From Pseudomonadota bacterium (GTDB lineage Bacteria; Desulfobacterota; BSN033; WVXP01), in NCBI GenBank assembly GCA_011773445.1, contig WVXP01000274.1:9441-44027 (forward strand): a DNA stretch of 34,587 nucleotides. Reading direction: 5' to 3'. Every line of letters begins with the position of its first letter. Position 1 is the first letter of the stretch. The notes under the pieces were generated by a model that did no database searches, was not told the origin of the DNA, and saw only the letters and a list, made by a program, of their open reading frames with translations. A program made the translations under genes and the position numbers. Below are positions 15,351 to 32,262 of the stretch, piece after piece.

Positions 15351-15378
15351 ATAAAAGCGTTAAGGATCGATGATGGCT

Positions 15379-15406: not shown

Positions 15407-15414
15407 CGTTTTCC

Positions 15415-16549: not shown

Positions 16550-17437
16550 ATGGTAGCAAAGATTATCAGCGGTAAAGAAGTCGCCAAACAGATTCGAGAA
16601 GAGCTCAAAGCTGAAGTCGAAAAACTGAAAGAAACTCATGATGTGGAGCCCGGCCTCGTCACGATTCTGGTCGGTGAAAACCCGGCGTCGGTAAGCTACG
16701 TAACCGCCAAACAGAAAACCGCCCATGAACTTGGTTTTCACTCAGTCCAGGACAATCAGCCCGAGAATATGACGGAGCATGATCTTTTGGCACTTATCGA
16801 GATGTATAATAAGGATCCCAAGATTCACGGCATTCTGGTTCAGCTACCCCTGCCCAAGCATATCAACGAGAATAAGGTTCTCTACGCTATCGATCCGAAA
16901 AAGGATGTGGATGGATTTCATCCGGTCAATGTGGGTAAATTGATGATAGGAGAGCCCGATTATCTGCCCTGCACGCCAGCCGGCATTCAGCAACTTCTGG
17001 TTCGCTCAGGTGCGCAGATAGAGGGAGCCGAAGTGGTGGTGGTAGGCAGGAGTAATATTGTTGGGAAACCGATCGCCAACATTCTGCTGCAGAAAGCCGA
17101 AGGAGCAAATGCCACGGTAACCATTTGCCACACAAGAACCAAGGATATGGCCTTCCACACTCGAAGAGCGGATATTCTGATTGTAGCTGCAGGAAGACCC
17201 AAGGCGATCACTGCCGACATGGTGAAGGAAGGGGTGGTGGTTATTGATGTGGGGGTGAATCGCATCGGGAAGACTCCCGAAGGAAAGGCCAAACTCTGCG
17301 GCGATGTGGATTTCGAAGCTGTCAAAGAAAAAGCGAGCATGATTACCCCGGTTCCGGGAGGCGTCGGGCCCATGACGATCACTATGTTAATGATGAATAC
17401 CGTCAGGGCAGCAAAACTTGCCGCCGAAGCTGCATAG
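16550..17437 (+). CDS. folD: Bifunctional methylene-THF dehydrogenase/methenyl-THF cyclohydrolase
   Basis: FolD interconverts 10-formyl-THF, methenyl-THF and methylene-THF, the middle steps of the methyl branch, with NAD(P). The 295-residue protein has catalytic Tyr50 and Lys54 in VSYVTAKQK and the cyclohydrolase segment GILVQLPLP. It also has KDVDGFHPVNVG, the dinucleotide-binding VVVGRSNIVGKP and C-terminal ITPVPGGVGPMTITML. The ATG at 16550 follows GGGGAG. Because it covers both activities, no separate cyclohydrolase (FchA) is needed. Confidence 0.96.
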   Translation: MVAKIISGKEVAKQIREELKAEVEKLKETHDVEPGLVTILVGENPASVSYVTAKQKTAHELGFHSVQDNQPENMTEHDLLALIEMYNKDPKIHGILVQLPLPKHINENKVLYAIDPKKDVDGFHPVNVGKLMIGEPDYLPCTPAGIQQLLVRSGAQIEGAEVVVVGRSNIVGKPIANILLQKAEGANATVTICHTRTKDMAFHTRRADILIVAAGRPKAITADMVKEGVVVIDVGVNRIGKTPEGKAKLCGDVDFEAVKEKASMITPVPGGVGPMTITMLMMNTVRAAKLAAEAA

Positions 17438-17504
17438 ACCAGGGGTGGCCGATCGGAGAGGTTCTTGGACTCGGTTTGTGAAAGATTATACAAGAGGAGG
17501 CGTT

Positions 17505-17717
17505 ATGAAGGAGAAGCTCGAGGAGAAGAAGAGTTTTGATGGGAAGAAGGTCAAGGTTGTCGGGGCCACGTTTGATAAGGGGAAGCCGGATTCACCCTAC
17601 TATTGGCGAAAGAAACTGAGATCGCGAGATGAGATCCTTGAATATCTTAGAACTGGAGAGAGGTACTGGTTTAACGAAGAATGGTATGGCAGTGAGAAAC
17701 GAAAGACGCCAGCCTAA
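17505..17717 (+). CDS. Small conserved-looking protein of unknown function inside the acs cluster
   Basis: The ATG at 17505 has a strong AGGAGG site four bases away and gives a 70-residue, highly charged soluble protein with no cysteines, signal peptide or membrane span. The first 25 residues are Lys/Glu/Asp-rich. The C-terminal half is aromatic-rich (PYYWRKKLRSRDEILEYLRTG, then YWFNEEWYG). The frame is open upstream to 17418, but that part overlaps folD and lacks a ribosome site. It ends 28 bp before acsD and is co-oriented with it. Position suggests a role with CODH/ACS or the corrinoid protein, but I recognise no family and assign no function. Confidence 0.7.
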   Translation: MKEKLEEKKSFDGKKVKVVGATFDKGKPDSPYYWRKKLRSRDEILEYLRTGERYWFNEEWYGSEKRKTPA

Positions 17718-17745
17718 TATCCTATGAGCGGGGGAGGTGATGAGC

Positions 17746-18696
17746 GTGGCTTTTGAAACACCGAAAATCACGTATACGGGAAAAATCAAGAGTATCGCAA
17801 TCGGAAAGGGCGACCAAGCCATCCTTCTCGGAGATGAAAGCTCATATCCCTTTCATCTATTTGAGGGTGAAATGCCAAATACCCCTCGGATAGCCATGGA
17901 GGTGTACGATGTGGCTCCTGAGGATTGGGCAGAGGCTGCCCTGAAGCCCTTTACTGGTGTGACAGAGGATCCTGTGGCTTGGGCAAAGAGAAATGTAGAG
18001 GAGTACAAAGCCGACATGGTCTGCCTTCATCTGATCAGCACCGACCCCAATGGTCTCGATCGCCCGGCCGACGAAGCCGCCCAAACAGCGAAAAAGGTAG
18101 CCGATGCCGTTGATGTCCCACTGATTGTTTGGGGTGTAGACAATGATGATAAGGACGCTGAGGTGCTCCGAAAAGTGGCTGAGGTCTGTGAGGGCAAGCA
18201 TCTGATAATTGGTCCAGTGGTGGAGGGGAATTACAAGCAAGTGGGAGCCGGCGCCATAGGATACAAACACACAGCCATTGCCTCTACCCCGATTGATATT
18301 AATCTAGCCAAACAACTCAACATTCTCTTGGGTAATCTCGGTGTTCCCGATGAACAGATCATTGTCGATCCAACCACGGGTGGACTGGGATATGGAATCG
18401 AGTACACCTATTCGGTGATGGAGCGAATACGAATGGCTGCGCTCACTCAGCAGGATGAGCGTCTTCAGTTCCCGATGATCTGTAATCTTGCGAGAGAGGT
18501 CTGGAAAACGAAAGAGGCAAAATTGACTGCAGAGGAAGCTCCAACCATGGGGGATCCTGAAAAGCGTGGAATACTCATGGAGGGGGTGACTGCGGTTGTT
18601 CTCCTTCTTGCCGGTGCCGACATTTTGGTCATGCGACATCCAGAGGCGGTTAAACTGGTCAGAGAGATGATCGGCGAATTGATGGCAGCCGCGTAG
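17746..18696 (+). CDS. acsD: Corrinoid iron-sulfur protein small (delta) subunit
   Basis: AcsD (CdhD family) pairs with AcsC to form the corrinoid iron-sulfur protein that carries the methyl group from methyl-THF to acetyl-CoA synthase. The 316-residue product has the TIM-barrel family segments PFHLFEGEMPNTPRIAMEV, IDINLAKQLNILLGNLG, IVDPTTGGLGYGIEYTYSVMERIR and the C-terminal ADILVMRHPEAVKLVREMI, all close to the Moorella-type subunit. GTG 17746 is preferred because GGGGAGG lies eight bases upstream; ATG 17740 and GTG 17737 are nearer and less well spaced. It lies upstream of cooS, acsB and acsC. Confidence 0.94.
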   Translation: MAFETPKITYTGKIKSIAIGKGDQAILLGDESSYPFHLFEGEMPNTPRIAMEVYDVAPEDWAEAALKPFTGVTEDPVAWAKRNVEEYKADMVCLHLISTDPNGLDRPADEAAQTAKKVADAVDVPLIVWGVDNDDKDAEVLRKVAEVCEGKHLIIGPVVEGNYKQVGAGAIGYKHTAIASTPIDINLAKQLNILLGNLGVPDEQIIVDPTTGGLGYGIEYTYSVMERIRMAALTQQDERLQFPMICNLAREVWKTKEAKLTAEEAPTMGDPEKRGILMEGVTAVVLLLAGADILVMRHPEAVKLVREMIGELMAAA

Positions 18697-18732
18697 TCGT
18701 CACAAAAGACGGAAGTGAGTAGGAGGCTTACT

Positions 18733-20685
18733 ATGGCAGAGAAAGAAACGAAGAGTGTGGATCAGGCCAGTGTGGAAATGATCGAGAAGGCAGCGGCTGA
18801 CGGGGTAACGACCGTCTTCGATCGGGCTGCTAAGATGAAGCCTTGCCCTATCGGGGCAGAGGGAAGCTGTTGTAAGCATTGTTCGATGGGGCCTTGCCGT
18901 GTTCAGGTTCCAAAGAAAGAGGGTGTTCCGAGGCCTGTCGGTGTCTGTGGTGCGACGGCTGAGACGATTTCAGCAAGAAACTTCGCCCGCATGGTCGCTG
19001 CTGGAGCGGCCTCTCACGGGGATCACGCCCGGAGTGTCGCGGAGCTCTTCCTGGCGACCGCGAAGGGCGAGGTTTCAGACTTTGAGATTAGGGATGAGCA
19101 AAAACTCTACCAGATAGCCATGGATTTTGGAGTGGAGATCGGCAACCGTGACCTCAAGGATATTGCTATTGAGGTAGGAGAGATGGCCTTGGCGGAGTTC
19201 GGCCGTCAAGAAGGAGAAATTCTCTTCGCCAAGCGGGCCCCTTTGAAACGCCAGGAACTGTGGCGTGAGACGGGGACCATGCCCCGGGGAATTGACCGGG
19301 AAGTGGTTGAGCTCATGCATCGGACCCATATGGGGGTGGATCAGGATTACCAGAGCCTGCTCAATGCAGCTGCTCGGTGTGCATTGTCTGACGGCTGGGG
19401 AGGGTCCATGATATCCACGGAGCTTCAAGACGTTCTCTTTGGGGACCCCGTGCCAGTGGCAAGCCAGATCAACCTGGGAGCGCTCAAGGAGGATCATGTC
19501 AATGTGGTGGTTCACGGCCATGAGCCGCTCCTTCCAGAGATGATGGTTCTGGCATCGCAGGATCCCGAGCTCCAGAAGTATGCGCAGTCGAAAGGGGCCA
19601 AGGGGCTCAATCTCGCCGGAATGTGCTGCAGTGCCAATGAGATCCTCATGCGTCATGGAATTCCGGTGGCCGGTAACTTCCTACAGCAGGAGCTTGCCAT
19701 TATTACCGGAGCAGTCGAAGCGATGACTGTGGATGTTCAGTGTGAAATGCAGTCACTGGTCGACGTGGCCAAATGCTATCACACCAAACTCATCACGACC
19801 GACCCGAGGGCCCATATTGAGGGGGCCACGCACATTGAATTCAGCCATGACGATGGCCTCAATGTTGCCAAAAGAATAATCCGTGAAGCAATCGACAACT
19901 TTTCAAACCGAAAAGCCGAGGTTCAAATACCTTCCCAAACCGTTGATACAGTGGTCGGATTCAGCCACGAAACCATCAACTATCTGCTAGGAGGGCTCTA
20001 CCGGGCCTCTTATCGTCCTCTCAATGATAATATCATCAATGGTCGGATTCGGGGAATTGCCGGTGTTGTTGGGTGTAACAATGCTCGGACAGTTCACGAT
20101 GACGACCACCTTAAGATGATTCTCGAGTTGGTCGGAAACGATGTGATTGTCCTCACCACCGGCTGCAGTGCCATGGCTGCTGGAAAGTACGGCCTCTTAA
20201 CACCTGAGGCAGCCCATAAGCACGCCGGTAAGGGACTCGCCTCAGTCTGTGAAGCTGTTGGGATCCCACCGGTTCTTCACATGGGAGCGTGCGTCGATAA
20301 TAGCCGCATACTCATGGCTGCCACGGCCGTCGTCAAGGATGGAGGCCTCGGGGACGACATCAGCGACCTCCCCGCAGCTGGTGCTGCGCCAGAGTGGATG
20401 AGCGAGAAGGCGATTACGATCGGCCAGTACTTTGTTTCGTCGGGTGTCTATACGGTGTTCGGCGTCACCTGGCCTACCCTCGGCAACGAGGAGGTCACAA
20501 AGCATCTCTTCGAGGGATTCGAAGAGATCTTCAAGGGTAAATGGGATTTTGAGGCAGATCCCGTCAAAGCAGCTGGAAAGATGATCGAACATATCGATTC
20601 GAAGCGAAAAGCCCTGGGAATCGACAAAAAGAGAGAACGTGTTCTCTATGACATGGCCAAACGGCGTGAACTGGAGGCCGCCTAG
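18733..20685 (+). CDS. cooS: Nickel-iron carbon monoxide dehydrogenase catalytic subunit
   Basis: This enzyme (AcsA/CooS) interconverts CO2 and CO and, bound to AcsB, feeds CO through a tunnel to acetyl-CoA synthase. The 650-residue protein has the N-terminal cluster-binding cysteines C38, C46, C47, C50 and C55 (CPIGAEGSCCKHCSMGPC) and C72. Probable C-cluster ligand motifs are AGMCCSANE, VQCEMQS, VGCNNARTVHDD, TTGCSAMAAGK and MGACVDNSR. The segment THMGVDQDYQSLLNAA resembles AcsA of acetogens. ATG 18733 is chosen for the AGGAGG six bases upstream; the frame extends to GTG 18715. acsB follows after about 30 bp, consistent with a CODH/ACS complex. Confidence 0.96.
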   Translation: MAEKETKSVDQASVEMIEKAAADGVTTVFDRAAKMKPCPIGAEGSCCKHCSMGPCRVQVPKKEGVPRPVGVCGATAETISARNFARMVAAGAASHGDHARSVAELFLATAKGEVSDFEIRDEQKLYQIAMDFGVEIGNRDLKDIAIEVGEMALAEFGRQEGEILFAKRAPLKRQELWRETGTMPRGIDREVVELMHRTHMGVDQDYQSLLNAAARCALSDGWGGSMISTELQDVLFGDPVPVASQINLGALKEDHVNVVVHGHEPLLPEMMVLASQDPELQKYAQSKGAKGLNLAGMCCSANEILMRHGIPVAGNFLQQELAIITGAVEAMTVDVQCEMQSLVDVAKCYHTKLITTDPRAHIEGATHIEFSHDDGLNVAKRIIREAIDNFSNRKAEVQIPSQTVDTVVGFSHETINYLLGGLYRASYRPLNDNIINGRIRGIAGVVGCNNARTVHDDDHLKMILELVGNDVIVLTTGCSAMAAGKYGLLTPEAAHKHAGKGLASVCEAVGIPPVLHMGACVDNSRILMAATAVVKDGGLGDDISDLPAAGAAPEWMSEKAITIGQYFVSSGVYTVFGVTWPTLGNEEVTKHLFEGFEEIFKGKWDFEADPVKAAGKMIEHIDSKRKALGIDKKRERVLYDMAKRRELEAA

Positions 20686-20715
20686 TGACAATATCGTGTC
20701 GAAGGAGGAGCTAAA

Positions 20716-22923
20716 GTGTCGAAGATAATCTGTTCAGCTGCTATCAGAGGAGCCCACAAGGTTGTTGAGAAAGCCGAGAAAGAGTGGAAAGAGGCCATGG
20801 ATAAATGGGGGGCCACTGAACCGGTCGGGTTTCCCAACACCGCATATTACCTGCCGATTGTCTACGCCATCCTCGGCATCCCTGTGGAGAAGCTGGGGGA
20901 TATGGAGCCGGTCCTCGATCGGTGTCGAATCCTCTTACCACCTCTGGTCAAGGAGAACTCACCCCTTCCATACCTGGCTCCAGCCCTTGATGCCGGTATG
21001 GCCACCTTTTTTGCTGAAGAAATCATCGAGGCAATTCGGTATCTAAAAGAGCCAAATTTTTATACAAAGCAGGAGGACCCGACAGATGATAACCTCTGGC
21101 TCGGAGCTGCTGACGACGTGATTTTGAGGAAGCGGGGAATCGAGTTTGTCGATGGAACGGCTCCCGGGTTTGCAGCCATCGCCGGTGCGGCTCCGGATCC
21201 TGAGACGGCAAAGAATATAGCTATCGAGCTACAAGAGAAGAACCTCTACGTTTTCATGTGTGCGGAGAACGAGGGGAAACGGTTCAGTGAACAGCTTATA
21301 GAGGCAGGTGTCCAGATTGGATGGCCCACGAGGCTGGTCTCCTTTGGCCCGGACATCAGCGCCGCAGTTTTTGCTATGGGGTTCGCCTGTCGGGTCGCAA
21401 TGTCCTTTGGTGGGGTGAAGCCCGGTCAGTTCCGGAGGAACCTCATTTACAACAAAGACCGAACATTTGCCTTTGTGATGCCCCTCGGTTTTGTATCGGA
21501 CGAGTGGTATGCTAACGCGGCCGGTGCCATCAACTGGGGTTTCCCGACCATTGCCGATACACCAATCCCCGAGGTACTTCCGACAGGTATTTGCACGTAC
21601 GAACACGTCGTTTCCAATGTGCCCCACGACCAGATTGTTCGGCGGTCCGTCGAGGTGAGGGGACTCAAGGTCGCTGTCTCGGAAGTTCCCGTTCCTGTCT
21701 CATATGGCCCTGCTTTCGAGGGGGAGCGGGTCCGGGGAGACGACATTCACCTCGAAATGGGCGGTGGGAAAACCCACGCTGTCGAATGGATCACAACCCA
21801 AGAAATGGACCAAGTGGAAGACGGGAAGATTGAAGTGATTGGACCCAATATCACCGATGTCCAGGCTCCAGGCCAGCTACCGATTGCTATTGTTGGTGAG
21901 GTTGCAGGGCGGAATTTCGAGGAGGATTTCGAGCCTATCCTGGAACGACAGATTCACCACCTCATCAATTATGCTCAGGGGGTGATGCACATTGGTCAGC
22001 GGGATATCGCCTGGATCCGGATCAGTAAGCAGGCCGTCGAGAAGGGCTTCAAACTAGAGCACCTGGGTAAGATTCTCCATGCCAAACTCCACCAGGACTT
22101 TGGGGTCACCTTCGACAAGATTCAGGTGAAGATCTACACCGAAGAGGAGAGGGTGAATAAGATTCTGGAGGAGGCCCGGGCAGTCTATGCCAAGCGGGAT
22201 GCGCGGATTGAAGGCATGACCGATGAGACGACGGATATTTTCTACTCCTGCACCCTGTGTCAGTCCTTTGCCCCCAATCATGTCTGCATCATCAGTCCTG
22301 AGCGAACCGGACTCTGCGGCGCCTATAACTGGATGGACTGTAAGGCCTCGTACGAGATCAACCCCACAGGTCCTAACCAACCCGTAGAAAAGGGGGAAGT
22401 TATTGATGAGAACCTAGGTCAATGGAAAGGATGCAATGAATTTTTGCACAAGGCATCTCGGGGGACCTTCGATCATTACAACTTTTACAGCATTGTCAAT
22501 GATCCCATGACGACATGCGGGTGCTGTGAGTGCATTGCGGCAGTCCTTCCGATGTGCAATGGGATCATGACGGTGAACCGCGACTATCTGGGAATGACCC
22601 CCTGCGGCATGAAATTCACCACGCTTGCCGGTTCCGTCGGCGGTGGCGTCATTACGCCCGGGTTCGTTGGGCATGGAAAGTACAACATCACCCAGAGAAA
22701 ATTTCTCCGTGCTGAAGGGGGAATACAGCGAATCGTGTGGATGCCCAAGATGCTCAAGGAGGAGATCAAAGAGCGGTTCGACAATCGGGCTGAGGAAATG
22801 GGTATCCCTGATCTTATGGAAAGGATCGCCGACGAGACGATTGGTGAGACAGAAGAGGATATCCTTCCCTTTCTTGAGGAAAAACAGCATCCTGCTCTAA
22901 CCATGGATCCCATCCTCGGATAA
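20716..22923 (+). CDS. acsB: Acetyl-CoA synthase catalytic subunit of CODH/ACS
   Basis: AcsB condenses CO, a methyl group from the corrinoid protein and CoA into acetyl-CoA at the nickel-iron A-cluster. The 735-residue protein is the full-length bacterial form, keeping the N-terminal domain that docks to CODH. The A-cluster cysteines are C512, C515, C524 and C534 for the [4Fe-4S] part and the C601-Gly-C603 pair for the distal nickel. They sit exactly six residues beyond the Moorella numbering (506, 509, 518, 528, 595, 597) as I know it. The start is GTG 20716 after GGAGGAG. It follows cooS directly and precedes acsC. Confidence 0.97.
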   Translation: MSKIICSAAIRGAHKVVEKAEKEWKEAMDKWGATEPVGFPNTAYYLPIVYAILGIPVEKLGDMEPVLDRCRILLPPLVKENSPLPYLAPALDAGMATFFAEEIIEAIRYLKEPNFYTKQEDPTDDNLWLGAADDVILRKRGIEFVDGTAPGFAAIAGAAPDPETAKNIAIELQEKNLYVFMCAENEGKRFSEQLIEAGVQIGWPTRLVSFGPDISAAVFAMGFACRVAMSFGGVKPGQFRRNLIYNKDRTFAFVMPLGFVSDEWYANAAGAINWGFPTIADTPIPEVLPTGICTYEHVVSNVPHDQIVRRSVEVRGLKVAVSEVPVPVSYGPAFEGERVRGDDIHLEMGGGKTHAVEWITTQEMDQVEDGKIEVIGPNITDVQAPGQLPIAIVGEVAGRNFEEDFEPILERQIHHLINYAQGVMHIGQRDIAWIRISKQAVEKGFKLEHLGKILHAKLHQDFGVTFDKIQVKIYTEEERVNKILEEARAVYAKRDARIEGMTDETTDIFYSCTLCQSFAPNHVCIISPERTGLCGAYNWMDCKASYEINPTGPNQPVEKGEVIDENLGQWKGCNEFLHKASRGTFDHYNFYSIVNDPMTTCGCCECIAAVLPMCNGIMTVNRDYLGMTPCGMKFTTLAGSVGGGVITPGFVGHGKYNITQRKFLRAEGGIQRIVWMPKMLKEEIKERFDNRAEEMGIPDLMERIADETIGETEEDILPFLEEKQHPALTMDPILG

Positions 22924-23027
22924 TCTTTTTCATCTTGGGGATTCCCGTATGATGCGGGTCAGCCCCGGGGGGTCATTTGTGAATAAGGCGGGGTCGTCTT
23001 TCTTATAGAGGAAAAGGAGGAAAAGGT

Positions 23028-24371
23028 ATGGCACTCACCGGAATCCAGATATTTAAACTGCTTCCAAAGACCAACTGCGGCGAGTGTGGAGTTCCTACGT
23101 GTCTGGCTTTTGCCATGGCCTTGGCGGCAGGGAAGGCAGAACTGGCATCGTGCCCGTATGTTTCAGACGAGGCAAAGGCGCAGTTAGCAGAAGCCTCAGC
23201 ACCTCCCATCAGGCCCTTGGCAATCGGTACGGGTGACAATGCAGTGAAGATCGGGGGCGAGACCGTTCTGTTTCGTCACGAGAAGACCTTTGTTAATCCA
23301 CCTGGCCTTGCCGTTCTTGTCAGTGATGGAATGGATGATGCGGAAATCAGTGGTAGGCTGAAACGTTTCAATGAGTTGAAGTTTGAACGAGTGGGTCTCA
23401 CGCTGAGGCCTGAACTCGTGGCTGTGAAGGATGAATCTGGGGATGCAACCAAATTTGTTGGACTGATCGAGAGGGTGAAAAAAGAAACCGATGCATGTCT
23501 GATTTTGATGAGTGAAAAGACCGATGTCTTGGCTGCCGGAGTTAAAGCGTGTGCCGAACGTGTTCCGCTGATCTACGCAGTGACCGATGGAAACGTTGAT
23601 GCCCTTGCTGGGTTGGCCAAAGAACACAATTGTCCCCTGGCTGTGAAGGCGAAGGATCTCGATGAACTCTCTCAACTTACAGCCAAACTCGATCAGGCGG
23701 GCATCAAGGATATCGTGCTGGACCCAGGGTCCAGGGGGTTCCGAAAGGCATTTGAGGATGAGGTTTTCATCCGTCGAGCGGCTCTTCAACAGAAGTTTCG
23801 GCCACTCGGATACCCCACCATCACTTTTCCCTGTGAAATGACCGACGATCCGATGAAAGAAACACTCTATGCAGCGGCATTTATCGCCAAATATGGGGGC
23901 ATCATTGTCCTTTCCGATTTTCATGGGTATGGCCTCTTCCCCCTGCTGGTGGAGCGCATGAATATCTACACCGATCCACAACGGCCCATGACGATGAAGC
24001 AGGGGATCTACGAGGTTGGAAATCCGGATGAGAATTCCCCTCTCATGATCACCACAAATTTTGCGCTCACCTACTTTATCGTATCGGGTGAGATCGAAGC
24101 GAGCCGTATTCCCAGCTATCTCTTGGTGATGGATACAGAGGGTCTTTCCGTCTTGACTGCCTGGGCGGCAGGCAAGTTTGTGGGAGACGCCATGGGGATG
24201 TTCATCAAAAAGTCGGGAATTGAGGAGAAAGTCAAAAAGAAGCGAATCATCATTCCCGGCCTCGTTGCGGCAGTCAGTGGTGATCTGGAAGAGGAGTTGG
24301 GTTCGGATTGGGAAGTGGCCATCGGACCGAGAGAAGCCGCCCACATTTCAGCTTTCCTGAAGGCAAAATAA
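23028..24371 (+). CDS. acsC: Corrinoid iron-sulfur protein large (gamma) subunit
   Basis: AcsC binds the cobamide and a [4Fe-4S] cluster used to reactivate oxidised cobalt. The 447-residue protein has the N-terminal cluster motif at C17, C20, C25 and C42 (TNCGECGVPTCLAF...ASCPY), typical of the family. The rest includes the TIM-barrel body (LDPGSRGFRKAFEDEV, PTITFPCEMTDDP). The C-terminal cobamide-binding domain has FALTYFIVSGEIEASRIPSYLLVMDTEG. ATG 23028 has AGGAGGAAAAGG upstream. A 104-bp gap after acsB contains a weak nested GC hairpin (about 22937-22971) but no clear terminator, so co-transcription is likely. Confidence 0.96.
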   Translation: MALTGIQIFKLLPKTNCGECGVPTCLAFAMALAAGKAELASCPYVSDEAKAQLAEASAPPIRPLAIGTGDNAVKIGGETVLFRHEKTFVNPPGLAVLVSDGMDDAEISGRLKRFNELKFERVGLTLRPELVAVKDESGDATKFVGLIERVKKETDACLILMSEKTDVLAAGVKACAERVPLIYAVTDGNVDALAGLAKEHNCPLAVKAKDLDELSQLTAKLDQAGIKDIVLDPGSRGFRKAFEDEVFIRRAALQQKFRPLGYPTITFPCEMTDDPMKETLYAAAFIAKYGGIIVLSDFHGYGLFPLLVERMNIYTDPQRPMTMKQGIYEVGNPDENSPLMITTNFALTYFIVSGEIEASRIPSYLLVMDTEGLSVLTAWAAGKFVGDAMGMFIKKSGIEEKVKKKRIIIPGLVAAVSGDLEEELGSDWEVAIGPREAAHISAFLKAK

Positions 24372-24548
24372 GTTCCCGGGCGTTGGGAGCCCCATACCAG
24401 TCATCCAATCACTTCAATGTTTGGCGACGAGTGCCTACGGACAACCGACACCCTGAGATCTGGCCCTTGAGCAGAAACTCGCGACTTTTCAAAAGGATGG
24501 GTAGATTTCCATGGACATTTAGAATGGCCGTATTAAAGGAGGGACATG

Positions 24549-25445
24549 ATGGAACTCATCGGTGAAAACGTCAATGTCATGGTCACAAAGATCGGAACAG
24601 CCATGAAGGAGCGTGACGCAAAGACGATTCAGGATCTCGCTGTTGCCGAGGCCGAGGCGGGGATGGATTATCTGGATATCAATCTGGGACCAGCCCGAAA
24701 GGGAGGGGCTGAATTGATGGAGTGGATGGTGAAAACCATCCAGGAGGTCGTCGATCTTCCGCTCTACCTAGACACAACCAACGTCGAGGCGATTGAGGCT
24801 GGGTTAAGGGTTTACAAGAATAAGAGGGGGAAGGCCGTGATCAATTCGATCATGGCTAGGCCCGAAAGGATGGAGGCAGAGCTTCCTCTGGCCAAGAAGT
24901 ACGACGCAGGCTTTGTGGCTCTTCTGTGGGGTCCCGAAGGGATGCCTAGAGATGAGGCTGAAAGAGGGGTTCTCGCAACAGAGCTGATGAACAAGGCGGC
25001 CGAATATGGAATTCCCAACGAGGACGTCTGGATTGACCCCATCGTGACACCTGTGACGAGTCAGCAGGATCAGGTCAAAAGCATGATTGAATTCATGAAG
25101 ATGTTCAGGGACCTCCAGGAGATGGCACCGGGATTGAAATCGACCTGCGGACTCTCGAACGTTTCCAACGGCGCGCCCAAGGATCTGCGACCGATCCTCA
25201 ATCAAACCTACCTCCTCATCCTGGAAAAATATGGTATGGCCTCGGCGATTGTTGATGCTTTCGATGAAGATCTGAAAACCTTTGCCAGAGGCGAGAGACA
25301 GGATATCACGAATGTCGTCCGTGGGGTCGTAAGCGGTGAGGAACCGGATTCGGGGTCCCTTCCCAAAGAGCAAGTGGACTATGTCAAAACGGCGAAGATT
25401 CTTTTAGGACATTCCCTCTACTCCGATTCATGGCTTCAGCTGTGA
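24549..25445 (+). CDS. acsE: Methyltetrahydrofolate:corrinoid iron-sulfur protein methyltransferase
   Basis: AcsE moves the methyl group from 5-methyl-THF to the cobalt of AcsCD. The 298-residue protein has the pterin-binding TIM-barrel pattern: LIGENVNVM, DYLDINLGPARKGG, LYLDTTNVEAIEAGL, INSIMARPERME, IDPIVTPVTSQQDQ and CGLSNVSNG. It is longer than the roughly 262-residue acetogen enzyme. The extra length is an insertion near the C-terminus, around ARGERQDITNVVRG and EEPDSGSLPKEQ, before the conserved ending TAKILLGHSLYSDSWL. ATG 24549 lies five bases after GGAGGG; ATG 24546 is the alternative. A 177-bp gap from acsC carries no obvious signal. Confidence 0.93.
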   Translation: MELIGENVNVMVTKIGTAMKERDAKTIQDLAVAEAEAGMDYLDINLGPARKGGAELMEWMVKTIQEVVDLPLYLDTTNVEAIEAGLRVYKNKRGKAVINSIMARPERMEAELPLAKKYDAGFVALLWGPEGMPRDEAERGVLATELMNKAAEYGIPNEDVWIDPIVTPVTSQQDQVKSMIEFMKMFRDLQEMAPGLKSTCGLSNVSNGAPKDLRPILNQTYLLILEKYGMASAIVDAFDEDLKTFARGERQDITNVVRGVVSGEEPDSGSLPKEQVDYVKTAKILLGHSLYSDSWLQL

Positions 25446-25515: not shown

Positions 25516-25538
25516 GGCCCCTCTGGGAGAGGGCTTTT
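25516..25538 (+). promoter_or_regulatory. Hairpin overlapping the ribosome site of hdrA-like gene 1
   Basis: CCCTCT (25519-25524), a GGG loop and AGAGGG (25528-25533) form a perfect 6-bp stem, extendable by G17-C34, followed by TTTT at 25535-25538. The AGAGGG arm is the only good ribosome site for the TTG start at 25537. The structure could be a weak terminator or attenuator between acsE and the hdr genes, or could mask translation. Confidence 0.4.
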
Positions 25539-26649
25539 GAGCAAGAAACAAGGACTTGTTTTTTCAGAGACCTCTATGATTGAACCAAACAAGGCAGTTA
25601 CGGTTGGACAGAGGCCGGGTGTGGCAGACCAGAACGTTTTGATTCTTGGCAGTGGAATTGCGGGGATAACAACTGCCCTTGAGCTATCGGAAATGGGGAT
25701 CTCCTCCACAATCTTGGAGAGACGAGATCGTTTAGGAGGACAAGCCGCCGTTTTTGCCTGCAAGGCCTCCGAAAAATGTAATAAGTGCTTTGCCTGTGTT
25801 GTGGACAATCAGATACAGGAAGTGAGCCGAAGATCCGGAATCAGAATTCTGACGGAAAGCACATTGGGGAAGATATCCGGTGATCCTGGCCGATTCAAAG
25901 TCCAGATTCAGTCGGGAGGTAACGAAAGTCGACTTGAAGCCTCTGTGATTCTCGTTGCAACGGGTGTTGACTTTTTCAATGCGAGGCAGAAGCCGGAGTA
26001 TGGCTATGGGCTTTTTCAGAATGTGATCACAGCTCAGGACCTGGATGAAATGCTCCACGCCAAAGGGAGAGTCCTCCGACCCTCTGACGGCCAAGTCCCC
26101 TCGAGGATTGCTTTCTTCCAGTGTGTGGGGAGTCGGGACGAAACGATTGGCCACCTATGGTGTTCCAAGGTTTGTTGTGCTTATGCGCTCCGGTTCATGA
26201 AAGCGATCAGACATCAATACCCAGAGATCGAGACGAGCTTTTTCTATATCGATATCCAACCTCTTGGGAGATCCTTCGAATCGCTCCTGGAGGCCTGCCG
26301 TCAAGACGAGAGGATGCACCTTATTCGTAGTCTTCCCTCCAAGGTCTACGGGCATCGGACATCCACTGACCTTCGCATCAGATTTATTGATCCTGTCTCT
26401 GGAGGGATCACCGAAGAGGGTTTCGATTTAATTGTCTTGTCCATTGGGATGACGCCACGGGAGGATGCGGATCAGGTCGCCGATCTTCTCCACGTCCCGA
26501 AAAATGAGGAGGGATTCTATCGTTCGCCTCCGCCTGACTCAGGGATCTTCGTGTCAGGAGCGTGTAAAGGTCCCAGAGACATCGGAGGTTCCATAATTGA
26601 CGCCAAGGCCACGGCCCGAGAAATCGCTCAGTACCTCGGAGGTGTTTGA
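25537..26649 (+). CDS. HdrA-like FAD protein 1 (short, QmoA-like; no ferredoxin domains)
   Basis: This 370-residue flavoprotein resembles the FAD domain of heterodisulfide reductase HdrA and QmoA-type proteins. It has the dinucleotide fold VLILGSGIAGITTALE (G38-G43) and LGGQA. A four-Cys run (C75, C81, C84, C87) follows. C196, C209, C213 and C214, in FFQCVGSR and WCSKVCC, have exactly the spacing of the HdrA FAD-domain [4Fe-4S] ligands (386, 399, 403, 404 in the methanogen enzyme as I recall it). It ends with the GIFVSGACKGPRDI segment typical of HdrA. It lacks the N-terminal and ferredoxin modules of full HdrA. The TTG start at 25537 is uncertain; ATG 25576 also precedes the conserved fold. 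The next gene starts 3 bp on. Confidence 0.85.
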   Translation: MSKKQGLVFSETSMIEPNKAVTVGQRPGVADQNVLILGSGIAGITTALELSEMGISSTILERRDRLGGQAAVFACKASEKCNKCFACVVDNQIQEVSRRSGIRILTESTLGKISGDPGRFKVQIQSGGNESRLEASVILVATGVDFFNARQKPEYGYGLFQNVITAQDLDEMLHAKGRVLRPSDGQVPSRIAFFQCVGSRDETIGHLWCSKVCCAYALRFMKAIRHQYPEIETSFFYIDIQPLGRSFESLLEACRQDERMHLIRSLPSKVYGHRTSTDLRIRFIDPVSGGITEEGFDLIVLSIGMTPREDADQVADLLHVPKNEEGFYRSPPPDSGIFVSGACKGPRDIGGSIIDAKATAREIAQYLGGV

Positions 26650-26652
26650 CCC

Positions 26653-28377
26653 GTGAGATCTTCGAAGGAATGCCGCATCGCGATTGTGATCGATCACTGC
26701 GAAGGGACCCTTTCCCATATCTTCGATGAGGCGATGGTCCGATACTTCTCCGGACTTCCCTGTGTGGTTTCTTGTTATCAGGACGACAATCTCTCCTCCC
26801 CCCGCAGGCTTGAAAAGCTCGTTGCCAAATTGCGGAAGGGGAAGGCAGATCGGGCAGTTATTGTGGGCGGTAGTCCGAAACGCTATGAAGCGTCCTTCCG
26901 TCGTCTGGATTTGGGCACCGGATTTAACCCATATATGTTTCTTGTGGCCAATGTTCGGGAACAAGCTGTTTGGACAATTCCAGATGTCGAGAGGGCAAAA
27001 GAGAAGACCAAGACTATTGTGGCAAAGAGAATTCGGGAGGCCACTTGTCTGAGTCCGATTGGAGAGGAAAAATTCGAGCTGTCAAAGAATGCCATTGTCC
27101 TGGGCGGAGGTGTCGTTGGAATGCGGGCGGCGCTTGCTCTGGCCGATGCCAATATTCAGGTCACCCTGCTATCTCGGGCAAAAGATATTGGTGGAAAGGC
27201 GATCCAGCTTACGCATTTCTATGATCGGCCTGGTGAAGTTTCCTCTTGGTTCAAAGATCAGGTCAAGAAGGTCAAGAAACATCCGAATATCGCAGTAAAA
27301 ACATCGGTCGAGCTCAAGGGCCTTGAGGGATCTTTGGGGGATTATCGCGTCAAAGTAGAAGACCCGTCTGGAAAAAGAAGAGAGGTAGAGGGTTCGGCCG
27401 TGATTCTCGCCATGGGAAATGATGTGATCCCCAATACTGAGGGGATTTTTGGCCATCAACGGTTCATCTCTCCTCCTCAGATGGAGGCCATGCTTGCGGA
27501 TGGTGGAAAATCCCTTGTGACCGATAAAGAAAGGCCCCTTCAGACCGTGACTTTCATTTTGGATTTGGTCAATGAGACCATCAAAATCGATTCGGCCAAT
27601 GCCATCAAAAATGCAATACTTTTGAGAGAGAATCACGACCGTGCAGTATATGTGATCTGCCGGGATGTGAAGGTATCTCTGGATGGGATGGAAAAACAGT
27701 ACCGGAAAGCCAGGGAGATGGGCGTTATTTTCATCAAGTATGATGATCCCCCGAAGTTCTCTCTGGTTAATGGTCAAATCAATGTCGAGGTCAAGGAGGT
27801 TTCCATTCAAATGCGGGGAGATGATTACTCCCTTTCGATTCTTTCGGATCTCGTGGTCGTGAGTGAGCGTTTTGTGCCCTCAAAGGATAACCAAATGCTA
27901 GCCGATGTCCTGGGTATCCCTCTTGCTGAAGAGGGGTTTCTCATGGATGAGAACCCGCAGTTCGCCCGTGTCAGGACGAACCGTCGGGGAGTCTTCATCG
28001 CCGGAGGTTGCCGATACCCCCAGACTCTGGATGAGTCCCTCGTGGAGGCGGAGGCTGCCGCTGCTGGTGTGACTGAACTACTGTCCCAGGGGTTTTTCGG
28101 CTATGACTTAGCTGTTGCTGAAATCGACCCGGCAAAATGTGCTGCTTGCCTGACTTGTCCGAGGGTTTGTCCCCATTCAGCTATTGTGGTAGAGAGGTAT
28201 GCTGAGGGGAATGTCTATGTAACCGGTGGTTACGAGAAAGATTTTCGGTGGAAGGCAGCCAGGGTTCTACCGATGCAATGTTATGGTTGCGGTATCTGCG
28301 TCAGCTCTTGCCCAACCAAGGCCATTACACTCAAACATCTGACAGATGACGAAATCTCCCTGCAGGTGGGGGTATAG
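26653..28377 (+). CDS. HdrA-like FAD protein 2 with C-terminal 2x[4Fe-4S] ferredoxin domain (QmoB/HdrA-like)
   Basis: This 574-residue protein has an HdrA-type N-terminal domain (about 1-140; FNPYMFLVANVREQAVW is typical), an FAD fold (AIVLGGGVVGMRAAL, 148-162) and a C-terminal ferredoxin module. The module's cluster cysteines are C496-C499-C502-C506 and C543-C546-C549-C553. Where HdrA has the [4Fe-4S] ligands of its FAD domain, this protein reads FILDLVNETIKIDSANAIKNA, with none of the four cysteines. The Cys usual in the N-terminal C-S-P motif is also replaced (VGGSPKRYE). It is therefore complementary to the preceding short HdrA, which has those cysteines but no ferredoxin module. GTG 26653 start; mvhD follows after 19 bp. 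Confidence 0.87.
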   Translation: MRSSKECRIAIVIDHCEGTLSHIFDEAMVRYFSGLPCVVSCYQDDNLSSPRRLEKLVAKLRKGKADRAVIVGGSPKRYEASFRRLDLGTGFNPYMFLVANVREQAVWTIPDVERAKEKTKTIVAKRIREATCLSPIGEEKFELSKNAIVLGGGVVGMRAALALADANIQVTLLSRAKDIGGKAIQLTHFYDRPGEVSSWFKDQVKKVKKHPNIAVKTSVELKGLEGSLGDYRVKVEDPSGKRREVEGSAVILAMGNDVIPNTEGIFGHQRFISPPQMEAMLADGGKSLVTDKERPLQTVTFILDLVNETIKIDSANAIKNAILLRENHDRAVYVICRDVKVSLDGMEKQYRKAREMGVIFIKYDDPPKFSLVNGQINVEVKEVSIQMRGDDYSLSILSDLVVVSERFVPSKDNQMLADVLGIPLAEEGFLMDENPQFARVRTNRRGVFIAGGCRYPQTLDESLVEAEAAAAGVTELLSQGFFGYDLAVAEIDPAKCAACLTCPRVCPHSAIVVERYAEGNVYVTGGYEKDFRWKAARVLPMQCYGCGICVSSCPTKAITLKHLTDDEISLQVGV

Positions 28378-28396
28378 GGTCACAGGAAGGGAATAC

Positions 28397-28807
28397 TTGG
28401 TGGAGTCTTTTAGTCCGAGAATTGTTGCTTTCTGTTGTGATAAGTCGGGTTATGTAGCCGCGGATATGGTGGGGAAGCTCCGTTTGTCGTTGCCGGAGAG
28501 TTTGGATATTGTTCGGGTCCCCTGTGCAGGACGGATCGACGCCCTTCACCTACTTCAGGCCCTCGAGAAAGGAGCGGATGGTGTTCTGATCTTTGCCTGT
28601 CATGAGGAAAACTGTCAGTCCCTTACGGGTAATATTAGAGCAAAAGCTCGGATGGGTTACTTACATGGGATTATGGAAAGAATCGGACTTGAGAAAGAGA
28701 GGCTGGATCTCTGCAATTTGGCCACGAACAACGGGGCGAAATTTGCTGAGACGGTCCTTCAGAAATTTGATGAACTCAAGAAACTGGGTCCCAGTCCCGT
28801 TGAATAA
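28397..28807 (+). CDS. mvhD: MvhD-type [2Fe-2S] electron-transfer subunit
   Basis: MvhD/FlpD-family proteins carry a [2Fe-2S] cluster and pass electrons between HdrA and a partner dehydrogenase or hydrogenase. The 136-residue product has the family pattern: C13 and C14 (AFCCDKSGYVAADMVG), C43 (VPCAGRID), then GADGVLIFACHEENC (C68, C73) and GN. TTG 28397 follows GGAAGG by six bases; GTG 28400 is also possible. The open frame extends to 28346 inside the previous gene, but without conserved sequence. In QmoB and some HdrA proteins this domain is fused to the flavoprotein. Here it is a separate gene directly after HdrA-like 2. Confidence 0.9.
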   Translation: MVESFSPRIVAFCCDKSGYVAADMVGKLRLSLPESLDIVRVPCAGRIDALHLLQALEKGADGVLIFACHEENCQSLTGNIRAKARMGYLHGIMERIGLEKERLDLCNLATNNGAKFAETVLQKFDELKKLGPSPVE

Positions 28808-28972: not shown

Positions 28973-29644
28973 ATGATTAAAGCTGAGCAGAAACCGGTCG
29001 ATGAAATCCTCGACTTCCTCAAACCCCACAGGAAGATTCTTCTCGCAGGGTGTAATGCCTGTGTAGCGGTGTGTCACGCGGGTGGAGAGAAAGAGGTTGG
29101 GATCCTTTCTTCTGCCTTGAAAATGGCTCGAAAAAAAGCAGGCCAAAAAATCGAAATCCTCGAGGACTGCTCAACCCGGCAGTGTGAGCCCGAATTTGTT
29201 CAAGAGTTGAAAGAGAAAGCGGAGGAGGTTGAAGCTGTTTTATCCATCGCCTGTGGAGTGGGTGTTCAGACCGTGGCCAGAATGTTCTCCGATATCCCAG
29301 TTTATCCAGGTCTCAACACCACATTCATGGGAGAGACCGACGAACTGGGCGTCTGGATCGAAAGATGCCAGGCCTGTGGCAACTGTGTGCTCCATGTGAC
29401 GGGCGGTGTCTGTCCTGTGGCCCGTTGTGCCAAGCAACTTCTTAACGGTCCCTGTGGCGGCTCTCAAGACGGAGAATGCGAGATTGGCAATGACGTTCCA
29501 TGTGCCTGGCAACAGATATATGACCGATTAAAGACCATTGGTCAATTGCACAGGATGGAGGAGATCATCCCGGTCAAGAAATGGGGTAGAGAGAGCCGGG
29601 ATAAAGGGCCGAGAACCATCAGCAGGGAGGATCTGAAGTTATGA
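28973..29644 (+). CDS. metV: MetV, iron-sulfur/zinc partner of methylene-THF reductase
   Basis: MetV is the small cysteine-rich subunit required with MetF in acetogen-type methylene-THF reductases. The 223-residue protein has an N-terminal cluster motif C27, C30, C34 (GCNACVAVCHAGGEKEV), more cysteines near STRQC, and a C-terminal cysteine-rich domain. That domain, with CQACGNC, TGGVCPVARC and LLNGPCGGS, is typical of the MTHFR C-terminal domain family. ATG 28973 follows GGAAGGAG. Its last four bases (ATGA) overlap the metF start, so the two are translationally coupled. A 165-bp gap from mvhD shows no clear promoter. Confidence 0.92.
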   Translation: MIKAEQKPVDEILDFLKPHRKILLAGCNACVAVCHAGGEKEVGILSSALKMARKKAGQKIEILEDCSTRQCEPEFVQELKEKAEEVEAVLSIACGVGVQTVARMFSDIPVYPGLNTTFMGETDELGVWIERCQACGNCVLHVTGGVCPVARCAKQLLNGPCGGSQDGECEIGNDVPCAWQQIYDRLKTIGQLHRMEEIIPVKKWGRESRDKGPRTISREDLKL

Positions 29645-30564
29645 AATCCGGAAGTAATCTGGAAAAGATTCTGGAAAAGGGACTTTTTGCCGTAACGGGC
29701 GAGTTGGGTCCTCCGAAGGGGAACGATATCGAGGTTGTCAAGAAAAAAGCAGAGTTTTTGAAAGGATATGTTGATGCCATCAACATCACAGATAATCAAA
29801 CAGCCATTGTCCGGATGTCCAGCATCGCGGCCGGGGCGCTCCTGGTTCAGATGGGCCTAGAGCCCGTCATCCAGATGGTGACACGAGACCGGAACCGCAT
29901 TGCCATGCAGAGCGACATTTTTGGAGCCACCGCTCTGGGCGTCAAAAACATCCTCTGCCTCACAGGGGACCACCAGAGCTTCGGAAATCAAGTGGATTCC
30001 AAGAATGTCCACGATATGGATTCGATTCAACTGATCGACTGTGTCCGCATCATGCGGGATGGGGGAACCATTCTCGGTGGGGAAGAACAGATCGAAGGGC
30101 AGATCAAGATGTTCATTGGAGCGGCAGCCAATCCATTTGGTGATCCTTTTGAATTCCGTGTGATCCGTCTTGCGAAAAAGATCAATGCCGGCGTCGACTT
30201 TATCCAGACACAATGCATCTACGACATGAAACGTTTCAAGGAATGGATGAGGATGGCCGGAGATATGGGACTGATCGAAAAGGTCCACATCCTGGCAGGG
30301 GTGACTCCCTTGAAGTCAGCGGGTATGGCCCGATACATGAACAAGAATGTGTCGGGAATAACCATTCCCGACGAATTCATAAACCGGATGGCCAAGGCAC
30401 AAAAACCTGCGGAGGAGGGGATCAAAATCTGCGTGGAGCAGATTGAAGAGTTGAAAGAGATGGATGGGATCCACGGCGTCCATATTATGGCGATTGAATG
30501 GGAACACAAAATGGGTCAGATTACCGAGATGGCGGGACTCCTGCCCAGACCTGCGGTTTCCTAA
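29641..30564 (+). CDS. metF: 5,10-Methylenetetrahydrofolate reductase (MetF, MetFV type)
   Basis: MetF is an FMN- or FAD-containing TIM-barrel enzyme that interconverts methylene-THF and methyl-THF, the last folate step of the methyl branch. The 307-residue protein has LFAVTGELGPPKGND near the start (the catalytic Glu lies in that segment), AINITDNQTAIVRMSS, QMVTRDRNR, NILCLTGDH, GVDFIQTQCIYD and a C-terminal GIHGVHIMAIEWE. Its four-base overlap with metV supports a MetVF complex. In Moorella the equivalent genes are linked to hdrCBA and mvhD; here Hdr genes lie on both sides. The electron donor cannot be read from the sequence. Confidence 0.95.
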   Translation: MKSGSNLEKILEKGLFAVTGELGPPKGNDIEVVKKKAEFLKGYVDAINITDNQTAIVRMSSIAAGALLVQMGLEPVIQMVTRDRNRIAMQSDIFGATALGVKNILCLTGDHQSFGNQVDSKNVHDMDSIQLIDCVRIMRDGGTILGGEEQIEGQIKMFIGAAANPFGDPFEFRVIRLAKKINAGVDFIQTQCIYDMKRFKEWMRMAGDMGLIEKVHILAGVTPLKSAGMARYMNKNVSGITIPDEFINRMAKAQKPAEEGIKICVEQIEELKEMDGIHGVHIMAIEWEHKMGQITEMAGLLPRPAVS

Positions 30565-30594: not shown

Positions 30595-30752
30595 TTTTAC
30601 CACAGAGACACAGAGAAAACCGAGATATGTGTTTTTCGTTTGCCGGGAGCCAGCGGCAAACGAAAAGGATGGCTATTTTTGCCCATCGCCGTCTCCCGAT
30701 GGGCAAAAAATAGAGAATCCTCTGTGGCCTCCGCGTCTCCGTGGTTCGTAAA
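30595..30752. repeat. CACAGAG-type palindromic repeat with two internal hairpins
   Basis: The ends are imperfect inverted repeats. TTTAC followed by CACAGAGACACAGAG (30596-30615) faces the complement of CTCCGCGTCTCCGTG with GTAAA (to 30752), differing only by A/G transitions and a small insertion. Inside are a perfect 13-bp hairpin (30633-30645 with 30654-30666, loop of 8) and a 16-bp hairpin with one bulged A (30673-30688 with 30697-30713, loop of 8). It has no gene of its own and lies between metF and hdrC. Repeats with ACCACAGAGGCACAGAG-type ends are widespread in bacterial genomes to my knowledge. Confidence 0.7.
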
Positions 30753-30823
30753 TGCTATTCAAAATACATCAAATGCAATCATGGATTGGACCACTGAGGT
30801 CGGAAGAGATTGAGGCGAACATG

Positions 30824-31390
30824 ATGAAAATCGAACTGACAGAAGATACTCAGAAACTCTCCAGGGAGATTCAGTCTCTCACGGGAGAGAATGTGAATCT
30901 CTGCTATCAGTGCCGAAAGTGTTCAATCGGCTGCCCGGCGGTCTATGAAATGACCCTTAAGCCCCATGAAATGATGCGAGCCATTCAGCTCGGATTGGAA
31001 GAGGAGGTTTTTCAGTCCGGAACCGTTTGGATCTGTCTATCCTGTGAGACATGTAACACCCGATGTCCTCAGGATATCAATATTGTGAGAGTGATCGACG
31101 GTCTCAGAGAACTCGTGATGAGCGGACACGTCGACTACTTCAACCCTCATCCCGAGATCCCCTCTATGCATCGTCTTTTTCTGAAGTTGGTGGAGAGATA
31201 CGGCAGAATCTATGAAATGGGTCTGGCGTTGATCCTCAATCTGAAGATGGTCGATCCGTTTAAGGACATCGATATGGCGTGGCCCATGTTGTCAAGAGGC
31301 AAGTTGAAGCTTCTGCCGCACAAAAGCGGTGGCGTGGAGGAACTTCGTCGGGTAATGTCCAAGATTCGAGAGATTGAAGGAGAGAGCTGA
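30824..31390 (+). CDS. hdrC: HdrC-like [4Fe-4S] ferredoxin subunit
   Basis: HdrC relays electrons between HdrA and HdrB through two [4Fe-4S] clusters. From ATG 30824 the 188-residue protein has the two motifs C27-C30-C33-C37 (CYQCRKCSIGCP) and C71-C74-C77-C81 (CLSCETCNTRCP), followed by helical segments HEMMRAIQLG and NPHPEIPSMHRLF. The upstream open frame to 30752 lies in the end of the palindromic repeat and is unlikely to be translated; ATG 30821 is an equally good start. A GAGG lies about eight bases before. It overlaps the hdrB start by one base. It has no membrane anchor (HdrE/QmoC type), so the complex is probably cytoplasmic. Confidence 0.92.
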   Translation: MKIELTEDTQKLSREIQSLTGENVNLCYQCRKCSIGCPAVYEMTLKPHEMMRAIQLGLEEEVFQSGTVWICLSCETCNTRCPQDINIVRVIDGLRELVMSGHVDYFNPHPEIPSMHRLFLKLVERYGRIYEMGLALILNLKMVDPFKDIDMAWPMLSRGKLKLLPHKSGGVEELRRVMSKIREIEGES

Positions 31391-32262
31391 TGCGATATGC
31401 GTATTTTCCCGGATGTTCTCTGAGTGCCTCAGCTCAGGACTACGACATGTCTTTGAAATGGGTTTGCCGGTTCCTCGGGATTGAGCTCCAAGAAGTGAGG
31501 GACTGGGTCTGCTGTGGGGCTTCTTCGGCGCATGCGACCTCTCATCTTCTTTCGGTAGCGATACCTGCCATAAGCCTTTCCCATGCTGAGCAGAGTGGTT
31601 TTGATCAGTTGACTGCACCGTGCCTTGCCTGTCTGTCTCGGATGAAGACGGCCAACCAACAGATGGGAGCTGACCAGGCCCTCAAGCAGAAGATCAATGA
31701 TCTTCTCGAGGATGAATATCAGGGGACAGTCCAGGTCCTTCACCCTCTGGAGGTGATTCTCAAAGACGTTGGCCTTGATTCCCTCGGCAAAGGAGTCCAG
31801 AAACGTCTGTCCGGTCTGAAAGTAGCTTGCTACTACGGCTGCGTTCTGACCCGTCCTCCGAAGGTCTGCCAATTTGACAACACCGAGTATCCGATGAGCA
31901 TGGATAATATCTTACGGTCTGTTGGTATGGAAACACTGGACTGGGCTTACAAGACAGAGTGCTGTGGTGTAAGCATGACCCTGACCCGGGCAGACATGGT
32001 GGTTCATTTGGCACACAAGATTCTTCGAGCAGCAAAAGAGGTTGGAGCCGATGTCATTGCCGTTTGCTGTCCCCTCTGCCATGCCAACCTGGATATGCGC
32101 CAAAACCAAATCGCTGACAGGTACGGCGAGCGGTTTGATATTCCGGTCCTCTACTTTACACAGTTTCTGGGTATTGTGTATGGAGCCTATTCGAGGGAAC
32201 TCGGCTTCCACCGACTGATGGTTTCGCCCGAAAGAGCACTTGAGAATTACGGTATCCTCTAG
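31390..32262 (+). CDS. hdrB: HdrB-like subunit with two CCG domains
   Basis: HdrB carries the noncubane iron-sulfur clusters that reduce disulfides in methanogen heterodisulfide reductase; in bacterial complexes its substrate varies. The 290-residue protein has two CCG-domain sets. The first is PGCS (C9), WVCCGASS (C41, C42) and APCLACLSRM (C78, C81). The second is YYGCVLTRP, TECCGVSM and VCCPLCHANLD. ATG 31390 shares its A with the hdrC stop codon, a tight coupling. It is the last gene of the plus-strand island and converges with the PilZ gene 16 bp away. Whether it reduces a disulfide or only conducts electrons near MetVF cannot be told from sequence. Confidence 0.93.
   Translation: MRYAYFPGCSLSASAQDYDMSLKWVCRFLGIELQEVRDWVCCGASSAHATSHLLSVAIPAISLSHAEQSGFDQLTAPCLACLSRMKTANQQMGADQALKQKINDLLEDEYQGTVQVLHPLEVILKDVGLDSLGKGVQKRLSGLKVACYYGCVLTRPPKVCQFDNTEYPMSMDNILRSVGMETLDWAYKTECCGVSMTLTRADMVVHLAHKILRAAKEVGADVIAVCCPLCHANLDMRQNQIADRYGERFDIPVLYFTQFLGIVYGAYSRELGFHRLMVSPERALENYGIL

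Follow-up and report, generated by a model that had tools for sequence, protein, structure and literature searches.

A gene-split HdrA, probably heterodimeric, linked to a MetVF-type methylene-tetrahydrofolate reductase in a Wood-Ljungdahl operon

In the canonical HdrA, as laid out in PMC9012536, the route runs from MvhD through the C-terminal ferredoxin to flavin adenine dinucleotide (FAD) and from there along two branches, one leading through the FAD-domain cluster to HdrBC and the other through an N-terminal cluster to an inserted ferredoxin domain. The same paper describes an interface cluster ligated by three N-terminal cysteines plus Cys197 of the partner subunit in trans, and it proposes that HdrAs that are fused or encoded in tandem, and whose parts complement each other, act as heterodimers, the Moorella MetVF complex included. 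The MetVF-HdrABC-MvhD complex is described in PMC9430772, which shows contacts among MetVF, HdrA, HdrB and MvhD in Sporomusa ovata and is also the source of the glutamate/lysine (E/K) criterion for a bifurcating flavin; in the papers, physical association and methylene-tetrahydrofolate (methylene-THF) reductase activity have been demonstrated for S. ovata and Moorella alone (PMC9430772). Here we consider a stretch of 34,587 nucleotides (nt), hereafter the window, from a Pseudomonadota bacterium assigned by GTDB to the Desulfobacterota (GCA_011773445.1, contig WVXP01000274.1, positions 9,441 to 44,027 of the forward strand), in which a Wood-Ljungdahl operon encodes two consecutive HdrA-like flavoproteins, termed HdrA1 and HdrA2. 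With a probability that we put at roughly 70%, these are the unequal halves of a heterodimeric HdrA, which together with MvhD and HdrCB would make up the module that handles electron transfer for a MetVF-type methylene-THF reductase. This reading draws upon features that are directly visible in the sequences, namely domain content, the cysteines kept and lost, the clades formed by the two proteins, their co-occurrence and fusion, and their linkage to metVF.

The two genes occupy positions 25537..26649 (hdrA1, plus strand, 370 residues from a TTG start, with homologs beginning near residue 28) and 26653..28377 (hdrA2, plus strand, 574 residues), separated by a gap of 3 nt and exactly where a preliminary description of this DNA had located them. 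Both proteins yield partial matches to HdrA models of Pfam and NCBIfam, far under the cut-offs. HdrA1 contains cysteines at positions 75, 81, 84, 87, 196, 209, 213, 214, 254 and 343. The spacing C196-x12-C209-x3-C213-C214 is an exact match to the FAD-domain cluster ligands C386-x12-C399-x3-C403-C404 of Methanothermococcus thermolithotrophicus HdrA, and no ferredoxin domain was found in HdrA1 by domain search or alignment; on both points the preliminary description was accurate. Overlooked at that stage was a second motif, C75-x5-C81-x2-C84-x2-C87, which is invariant across the family. Its last two cysteines, C84 and C87, line up with methanogen HdrA residues C194 and C197, C87 being the equivalent of the trans-acting Cys197. 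The AlphaFold2 model of HdrA1 (predicted local distance difference test score, pLDDT, 91.8; predicted template modeling score, pTM, 0.87) has the HdrA chain 5odc_A as its best PDB match; HdrA2 is modeled with a pLDDT of 82.0 and a pTM of 0.76 and best matches methanogen HdrA chains, both proteins having been predicted as single chains.

HdrA2 is in many respects the complement of HdrA1. It comprises an N-terminal HdrA domain, an FAD-like domain and a C-terminal two-cluster ferredoxin domain (cysteines 496/499/502/506 and 543/546/549/553), while the four FAD-domain cluster positions are occupied by D304, a gap, D313 and S314. At its N-terminus G73 replaces the cysteine of the C-S-P motif, D14 and S48 replace two more, and C16 alone is left. 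For the ferredoxin motifs, the FAD-domain cysteines and the C-S-P cysteine, this inventory agrees with what had been noted from the sequence at the outset. The pair therefore displays the division of parts by which a heterodimeric HdrA is recognized, with C87 carried by HdrA1 and the N-terminal domain plus the eight ferredoxin cysteines by HdrA2, except that the ligands of the N-terminal cluster have been lost.

To place these features in a broader context, we used the HdrA1 alignment to scan 84,980 species genomes, which gave 80 loci. In all, 71 HdrA1 loci and 66 HdrA2 partners were assembled. The FAD-domain cluster cysteines and the additional four-cysteine motif are both found in 71/71 HdrA1 proteins, the latter with the spacing CX4-6CX2CX2C, and of 90 rows drawn from QmoA, QmoB and the canonical, small and double HdrAs, only 1 has four cysteines in the motif region. 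The FAD site of HdrA1, consisting of GxGxxG and an acidic residue, is kept in all 51 proteins checked. Conversely, every one of the 66 HdrA2 relatives has lost both the FAD-domain cluster and Cys197 and has retained all eight C-terminal ferredoxin cysteines. Since the pattern is uniform in 71/71 HdrA1 and 66/66 HdrA2, it is not due to chance. The N-terminal domain of HdrA2 is far more variable, being absent from 36 of the 66, present without its cysteines in 13 (the window among them), and present with intact cysteines in 17.

The loci include Deltaproteobacteria and Syntrophaceae, Actinomycetota (Ca. Oleimmundimicrobium), Chloroflexi, Clostridia and a Kiritimatiellae bin, and the branch spans at least four phyla. 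Seven genomes of the same class encode relatives of protein P0002 of about 570 residues with the same neighbors (44-60% identity), and remoter ones occur in the same phylum. Among 300 genomes from the phylum of one Firmicutes match, 73 contain an HdrA1 match at E <= 1e-40, approximately 30 of which are full-length HdrA1-like proteins judging from the listed lengths, the remainder being other HdrAs; the usual order in 20 regions from this phylum is acsE-hdrA2(-mvhD)-metV-metF-hdrA1. A recognized HdrA2 lies in the same gene cluster for 66 of the 71 HdrA1, and in the other five it is cut off by a contig end or, in L116, located upstream of metV. About 51 of the 71 HdrA1 loci carry metV on the fetched piece, and a fused HdrA1-HdrA2 adjoins metVF in L110, L207, L214, L216 and L217. 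The earlier proposal that the two flavoproteins are complementary, paired and in the service of MetVF is thus borne out by 66 pairs and by their fusion in several genomes. One could still imagine that HdrA2 is a decaying remnant and that HdrA1, with MvhD, works with MetVF on its own, in view of the rapid evolution of HdrA2, its missing clusters and the frequent loss of its flavin motif. We consider this very unlikely, given that each of the 66 HdrA2 retains its eight ferredoxin cysteines, that the gene has stayed next to hdrA1 across at least four phyla, and that several genomes encode the two as a fusion.

The relationship of the pair to described systems was examined using a tree of 87 FAD domains (LG+C20+F+G4; spurious "canonical" rows with very long branches were left out), in which the double HdrAs are proteins of 930-1530 residues from the surveyed genomes rather than the named Moorella and Sporomusa sequences. 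HdrA1 and HdrA2 each form a clade with support of 100/100; the sister group of HdrA1 is the N-terminal half of the double HdrA (95/84), and HdrA2 groups with the C-terminal half (split 100/99), while QmoA and QmoB together form a clade of their own (100/100), separate from both. The preliminary description had left kinship with HdrA, QmoA and QmoB to phylogeny, and the answer is a divided one: the pair corresponds to the double HdrA half for half, yet it constitutes its own branch. By its placement, then, it is an unfused and diverged sister of the double, two-FAD-domain HdrA of Moorella-like MetVF complexes. It is not merely a broken double HdrA, because three clostridial clusters (L129 14391, L153 14526 and L218 11816) hold both kinds, an HdrA1/HdrA2 pair plus a complete double HdrA of 1465-1505 residues with MvhD, which suggests one MetVF system with two HdrA modules. 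In the double HdrAs of three further loci (L054, L055 and L057), an in-frame TGA falls exactly at the Cys197 position (NDCAI-TGA) and likely encodes selenocysteine.

The same tree bears upon the suggestion, also made initially, that the parts list is that of QmoA plus QmoB, and upon a reading of the assembly as a soluble Qmo-like complex from which MvhD has split off and in which HdrCB takes the place of QmoC. QmoAB does resemble the window in combining two HdrA-like flavoproteins with an MvhD domain, which is carried by QmoB, and QmoA similarly lacks the N-terminal domain. Nonetheless, this explanation is hardly credible in view of the separate Qmo clade, the inserted-ferredoxin region of the compared QmoA proteins (an insert of 189 versus 108), the retention of the FAD-domain cluster in 6/9 QmoB and for the most part in both Qmo subunits, and the membrane subunit QmoC of the Qmo system. 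In the host assembly, which is 82% complete, there is no true QmoC (HdrC-level matches only) and no dsrA or DsrA, and the host is probably an acetogen or a syntroph instead of a sulfate reducer.

Closest in gene content are the MetVF-HdrABC-MvhD systems of Moorella thermoacetica and S. ovata, which share the set metV, metF, hdrA, hdrB, hdrC and mvhD; in the window, metV and metF are adjacent and lie in the same cluster as the rest. The Moorella and S. ovata HdrA combines two thioredoxin reductase-like (TrxR-like) FAD domains in one polypeptide, whereas the window distributes them over two. By published description, Moorella HdrA (approximately 1490 residues), for which PMC9012536 remarks on a complementary loss of parts, carries an NAD(P)H-binding GltD insert that the window lacks, and S. 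ovata HdrA has 942 residues, with a C-terminal part devoid of an inserted ferredoxin domain (PMC9430772), in comparison to 370+574=944 in the window. We dropped the notion, founded on length alone, that the window encodes a split S. ovata HdrA, as the E/K pair of S. ovata is reported in its N-terminal half (E160/K216) and HdrA1 has D/R instead. A second comparison is offered by Thermacetogenium phaeum, whose acs operon (Tph_c15090-Tph_c15190) contains AcsE - Hdr/MvhD (Tph_c15120) - MetV - MetF - Hdr-like (Tph_c15090). The papers on this organism regard the two as separate Hdr- or hydrogenase-like genes rather than as a pair and propose a quinone-linked model (PMC3551663, PMC6895022), with a reductase activity that is NAD-independent and largely membrane-associated (PMC6895022). 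The T. phaeum type, probably represented among our loci by L199 (an HdrA1 with CCKATDECNRCAAC and an HdrA2-MvhD of 675 residues, flanking metVF), differs from the window in gene order, in the fusion of MvhD to HdrA2, in having HdrB and HdrC elsewhere, and in keeping both the N-terminal cysteines and, on HdrA1, the E/K pair. Lastly, HdrA5/6, HdrA12/13 and HdrA3/4 of anaerobic methanotrophic archaea (PMC9012536) and the type II HdrA (PMC12054007) comprise two HdrAs with a complementary N-terminal domain, Cys197 and C-terminal ferredoxin in gene clusters unlike that of the window, and the accessible portions of these two papers make no mention of a four-cysteine motif or of the loss of the FAD-domain cluster from one partner.

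Several inferences can be made regarding how such a pair would function. In a heterodimer, HdrA1 would house the functional flavin together with the cluster supplying HdrC, while HdrA2 would provide the docking site for MvhD and a ferredoxin relay of two clusters. An additional [4Fe-4S] cluster may be bound by the HdrA1 motif CX5CX2CX2C at the contact between the two proteins, in the place of the cluster that the canonical dimer shares between subunits, and electrons could presumably travel in either direction along MvhD, the HdrA2 ferredoxin, the HdrA1 FAD and cluster, HdrC/HdrB and MetVF. For the window itself, we lean towards a linear, reversible and effectively one-flavin conduit that operates without ferredoxin bifurcation. 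We expect this since the low-potential branch has been stripped of its parts: the ligands of the N-terminal cluster are lost, HdrA1 has D170/R219 at the E356/K409 positions of the cluster-bearing flavin, and the interval from the Cys197 to the C386 position measures 108 residues in HdrA1 and 105 in HdrA2 versus 188, the inserted ferredoxin domain being absent from the window HdrA1, although some Desulfobacterota have it. T. phaeum-type relatives keep more of this branch and therefore may behave unlike the window.

The preliminary description had instead envisaged a hybrid complex, bifurcating or confurcating, in which both FADs would work, that of HdrA1 being linked to a cluster and that of HdrA2 not. 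Its complementarity has held up, whereas bifurcation has become less likely in the lineage of the window for the reasons just given. In favor of the hybrid, the window HdrA2 keeps GGGVVG and has E278 and K319 at the E/K positions associated with a bifurcating flavin (PMC9430772), E and K occur in both halves of related double HdrAs, and relatives such as L199-L213 retain E, K and the N-terminal cysteines. However, GxGxxG is lost from 10/46 HdrA2 and the acidic FAD residue from 25/46, including the window with S174, which weakens the case for two working flavins; furthermore, the exit to ferredoxin provided by the inserted domain is gone from both window proteins, as are three of the four N-terminal cluster cysteines, and HdrA1 has the D170/R219 substitutions. 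Overall, we regard the hybrid as unlikely.

A number of observations nevertheless count against the single-flavin heterodimer devoted to MetVF. With E278 and K319 in place, the flavin of HdrA2 may still have a bifurcating role. The distance matrices of HdrA1 and HdrA2 correlate strongly (r=0.91), but the correlation is confounded by the species tree. The K-to-R change coincides with the loss of the N-terminal cysteines, but K/R changes only once on the tree, so the coincidence is not independent evidence, and K409R was rejected as a covarying sign of bifurcation loss, there being no independent pairs. The four-cysteine motif also occurs in the 17/66 pairs with intact N-terminal cysteines; therefore, it is not simply a replacement for them, and its candidacy as a stand-in for the lost cluster ligands is weakened. 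Finally, about 20 of the 71 HdrA1 loci have no metV on the fetched piece, and the pair therefore serves other enzymes as well.

Such loci are found among the Desulfobacterales (L102, L103, L107, L115, L117 and L127), where HdrA1-HdrA2(MvhD)-HdrC modules occur without metVF, the pair serving some other enzyme there. In L102, L103 and L107, hdrA1 is preceded by a protein of 167-186 residues of unknown function with similar N-termini. In L118, L142 and L167, a fused HdrA1-HdrA2-MvhD of 824-874 residues with N at E356 precedes a QmoC/HdrC-like protein of roughly 400 residues, possibly a membrane-linked relative. A separate HdrA-like family of about 350 residues (CVGSRDRQIGNE[FY]CSKVCC) adjoins an HdrC-like protein of 420-450 residues in L125, L132, L136, L138, L140, L141 and L168, and is found in Chloroflexi, Bacteroidota, Actinomycetota and Deltaproteobacteria.

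Within the window, the genes form one plus-strand run, fhs-cooC-folD-acsD-acsA-acsB-acsC-acsE-HdrA1-HdrA2-MvhD-MetV-MetF-HdrC-HdrB, of which the first eight (13578..25445) have homologs in synteny and owe their individual names to homology and established knowledge. MvhD (FlpD; PF02662) lies at 28397..28807 on the plus strand; its longest open reading frame begins at 28346, with the TTG at 28397, preceded by GGAAGGG, being the likelier start. In the MvhD of the window and of related modules, C-x2-S replaces the C-x2-C of most other MvhDs, leaving four conserved cysteines (C31, C60, C85 and C90 in the numbering of the longer frame) that are likely [2Fe-2S] ligands. Further along the same strand are MetV, the iron-sulfur subunit of methylene-THF reductase (28973..29644; PF12225), MetF, the reductase itself (29641..30564; PF02219) and the only MetF copy in the 82%-complete assembly, soluble HdrC with two [4Fe-4S] motifs (30752..31390, its true start possibly at 30821) and HdrB with both CCG (non-cubane cluster) motifs (31390..32262), the last two identified by Pfam/NCBIfam. 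The metF-hdrC gap holds a dispersed repeat, ACCACAGAGACACAGAG (30598-30709), with two perfect 13-nt hairpins (30633-30666 and 30676-30709); the assembly contains 12 copies with <=1 mismatch, compared to 0 for the reversed control, and the repeat is a small, mobile-element-like insertion in the operon. At 1131-6204, dnaA, dnaN and gyrB are consecutive, named by recognition of their translations, which puts a probable replication-origin region some 10 kb away from the Wood-Ljungdahl operon.

As a principle, the arrangement is not undescribed, contrary to the initial view: the pairing is already known in fused form, with complementary heterodimeric HdrA published in PMC9012536 and MetVF-linked HdrABC-MvhD in PMC9430772. 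In contrast, no description of the gene-split sister branch in at least four phyla was found in the searchable literature, an earlier mention in a review of HdrA(BC) modules being possible, nor was one found there of the four-cysteine motif (71/71), the loss without exception of the FAD-domain cluster from HdrA2 (66/66) or the C-to-S change in MvhD. The gene-split branch and its extra cysteine motif are common among anaerobes and apparently lack an earlier description. The most interesting point is the invariant four-cysteine motif of HdrA1. Tentatively, and with the odds slightly against it, we suggest that C75, C81, C84 and C87 bind a new [4Fe-4S] cluster built partly on Cys197, which would move the interface cluster onto one subunit and leave the N-terminal domain and the second flavin free to decay, yielding a rewired single-flavin HdrA used mainly for methylene-THF reductase in Wood-Ljungdahl anaerobes.

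The coupling of methylene-THF reductase to energy conservation has long been a question in both acetogenesis and syntrophic acetate oxidation, and papers have treated the HdrA part as one protein or have taken the other flavoprotein for an oxidoreductase or a hydrogenase subunit with no relation to it. Viewing HdrA1 and HdrA2 as a single heterodimer, and one that is common in Wood-Ljungdahl operons, provides a concrete complex to purify, and the natural series of cofactor losses among its relatives (N-terminal cluster, inserted ferredoxin and K409) offers a way to ask which parts HdrA bifurcation needs.

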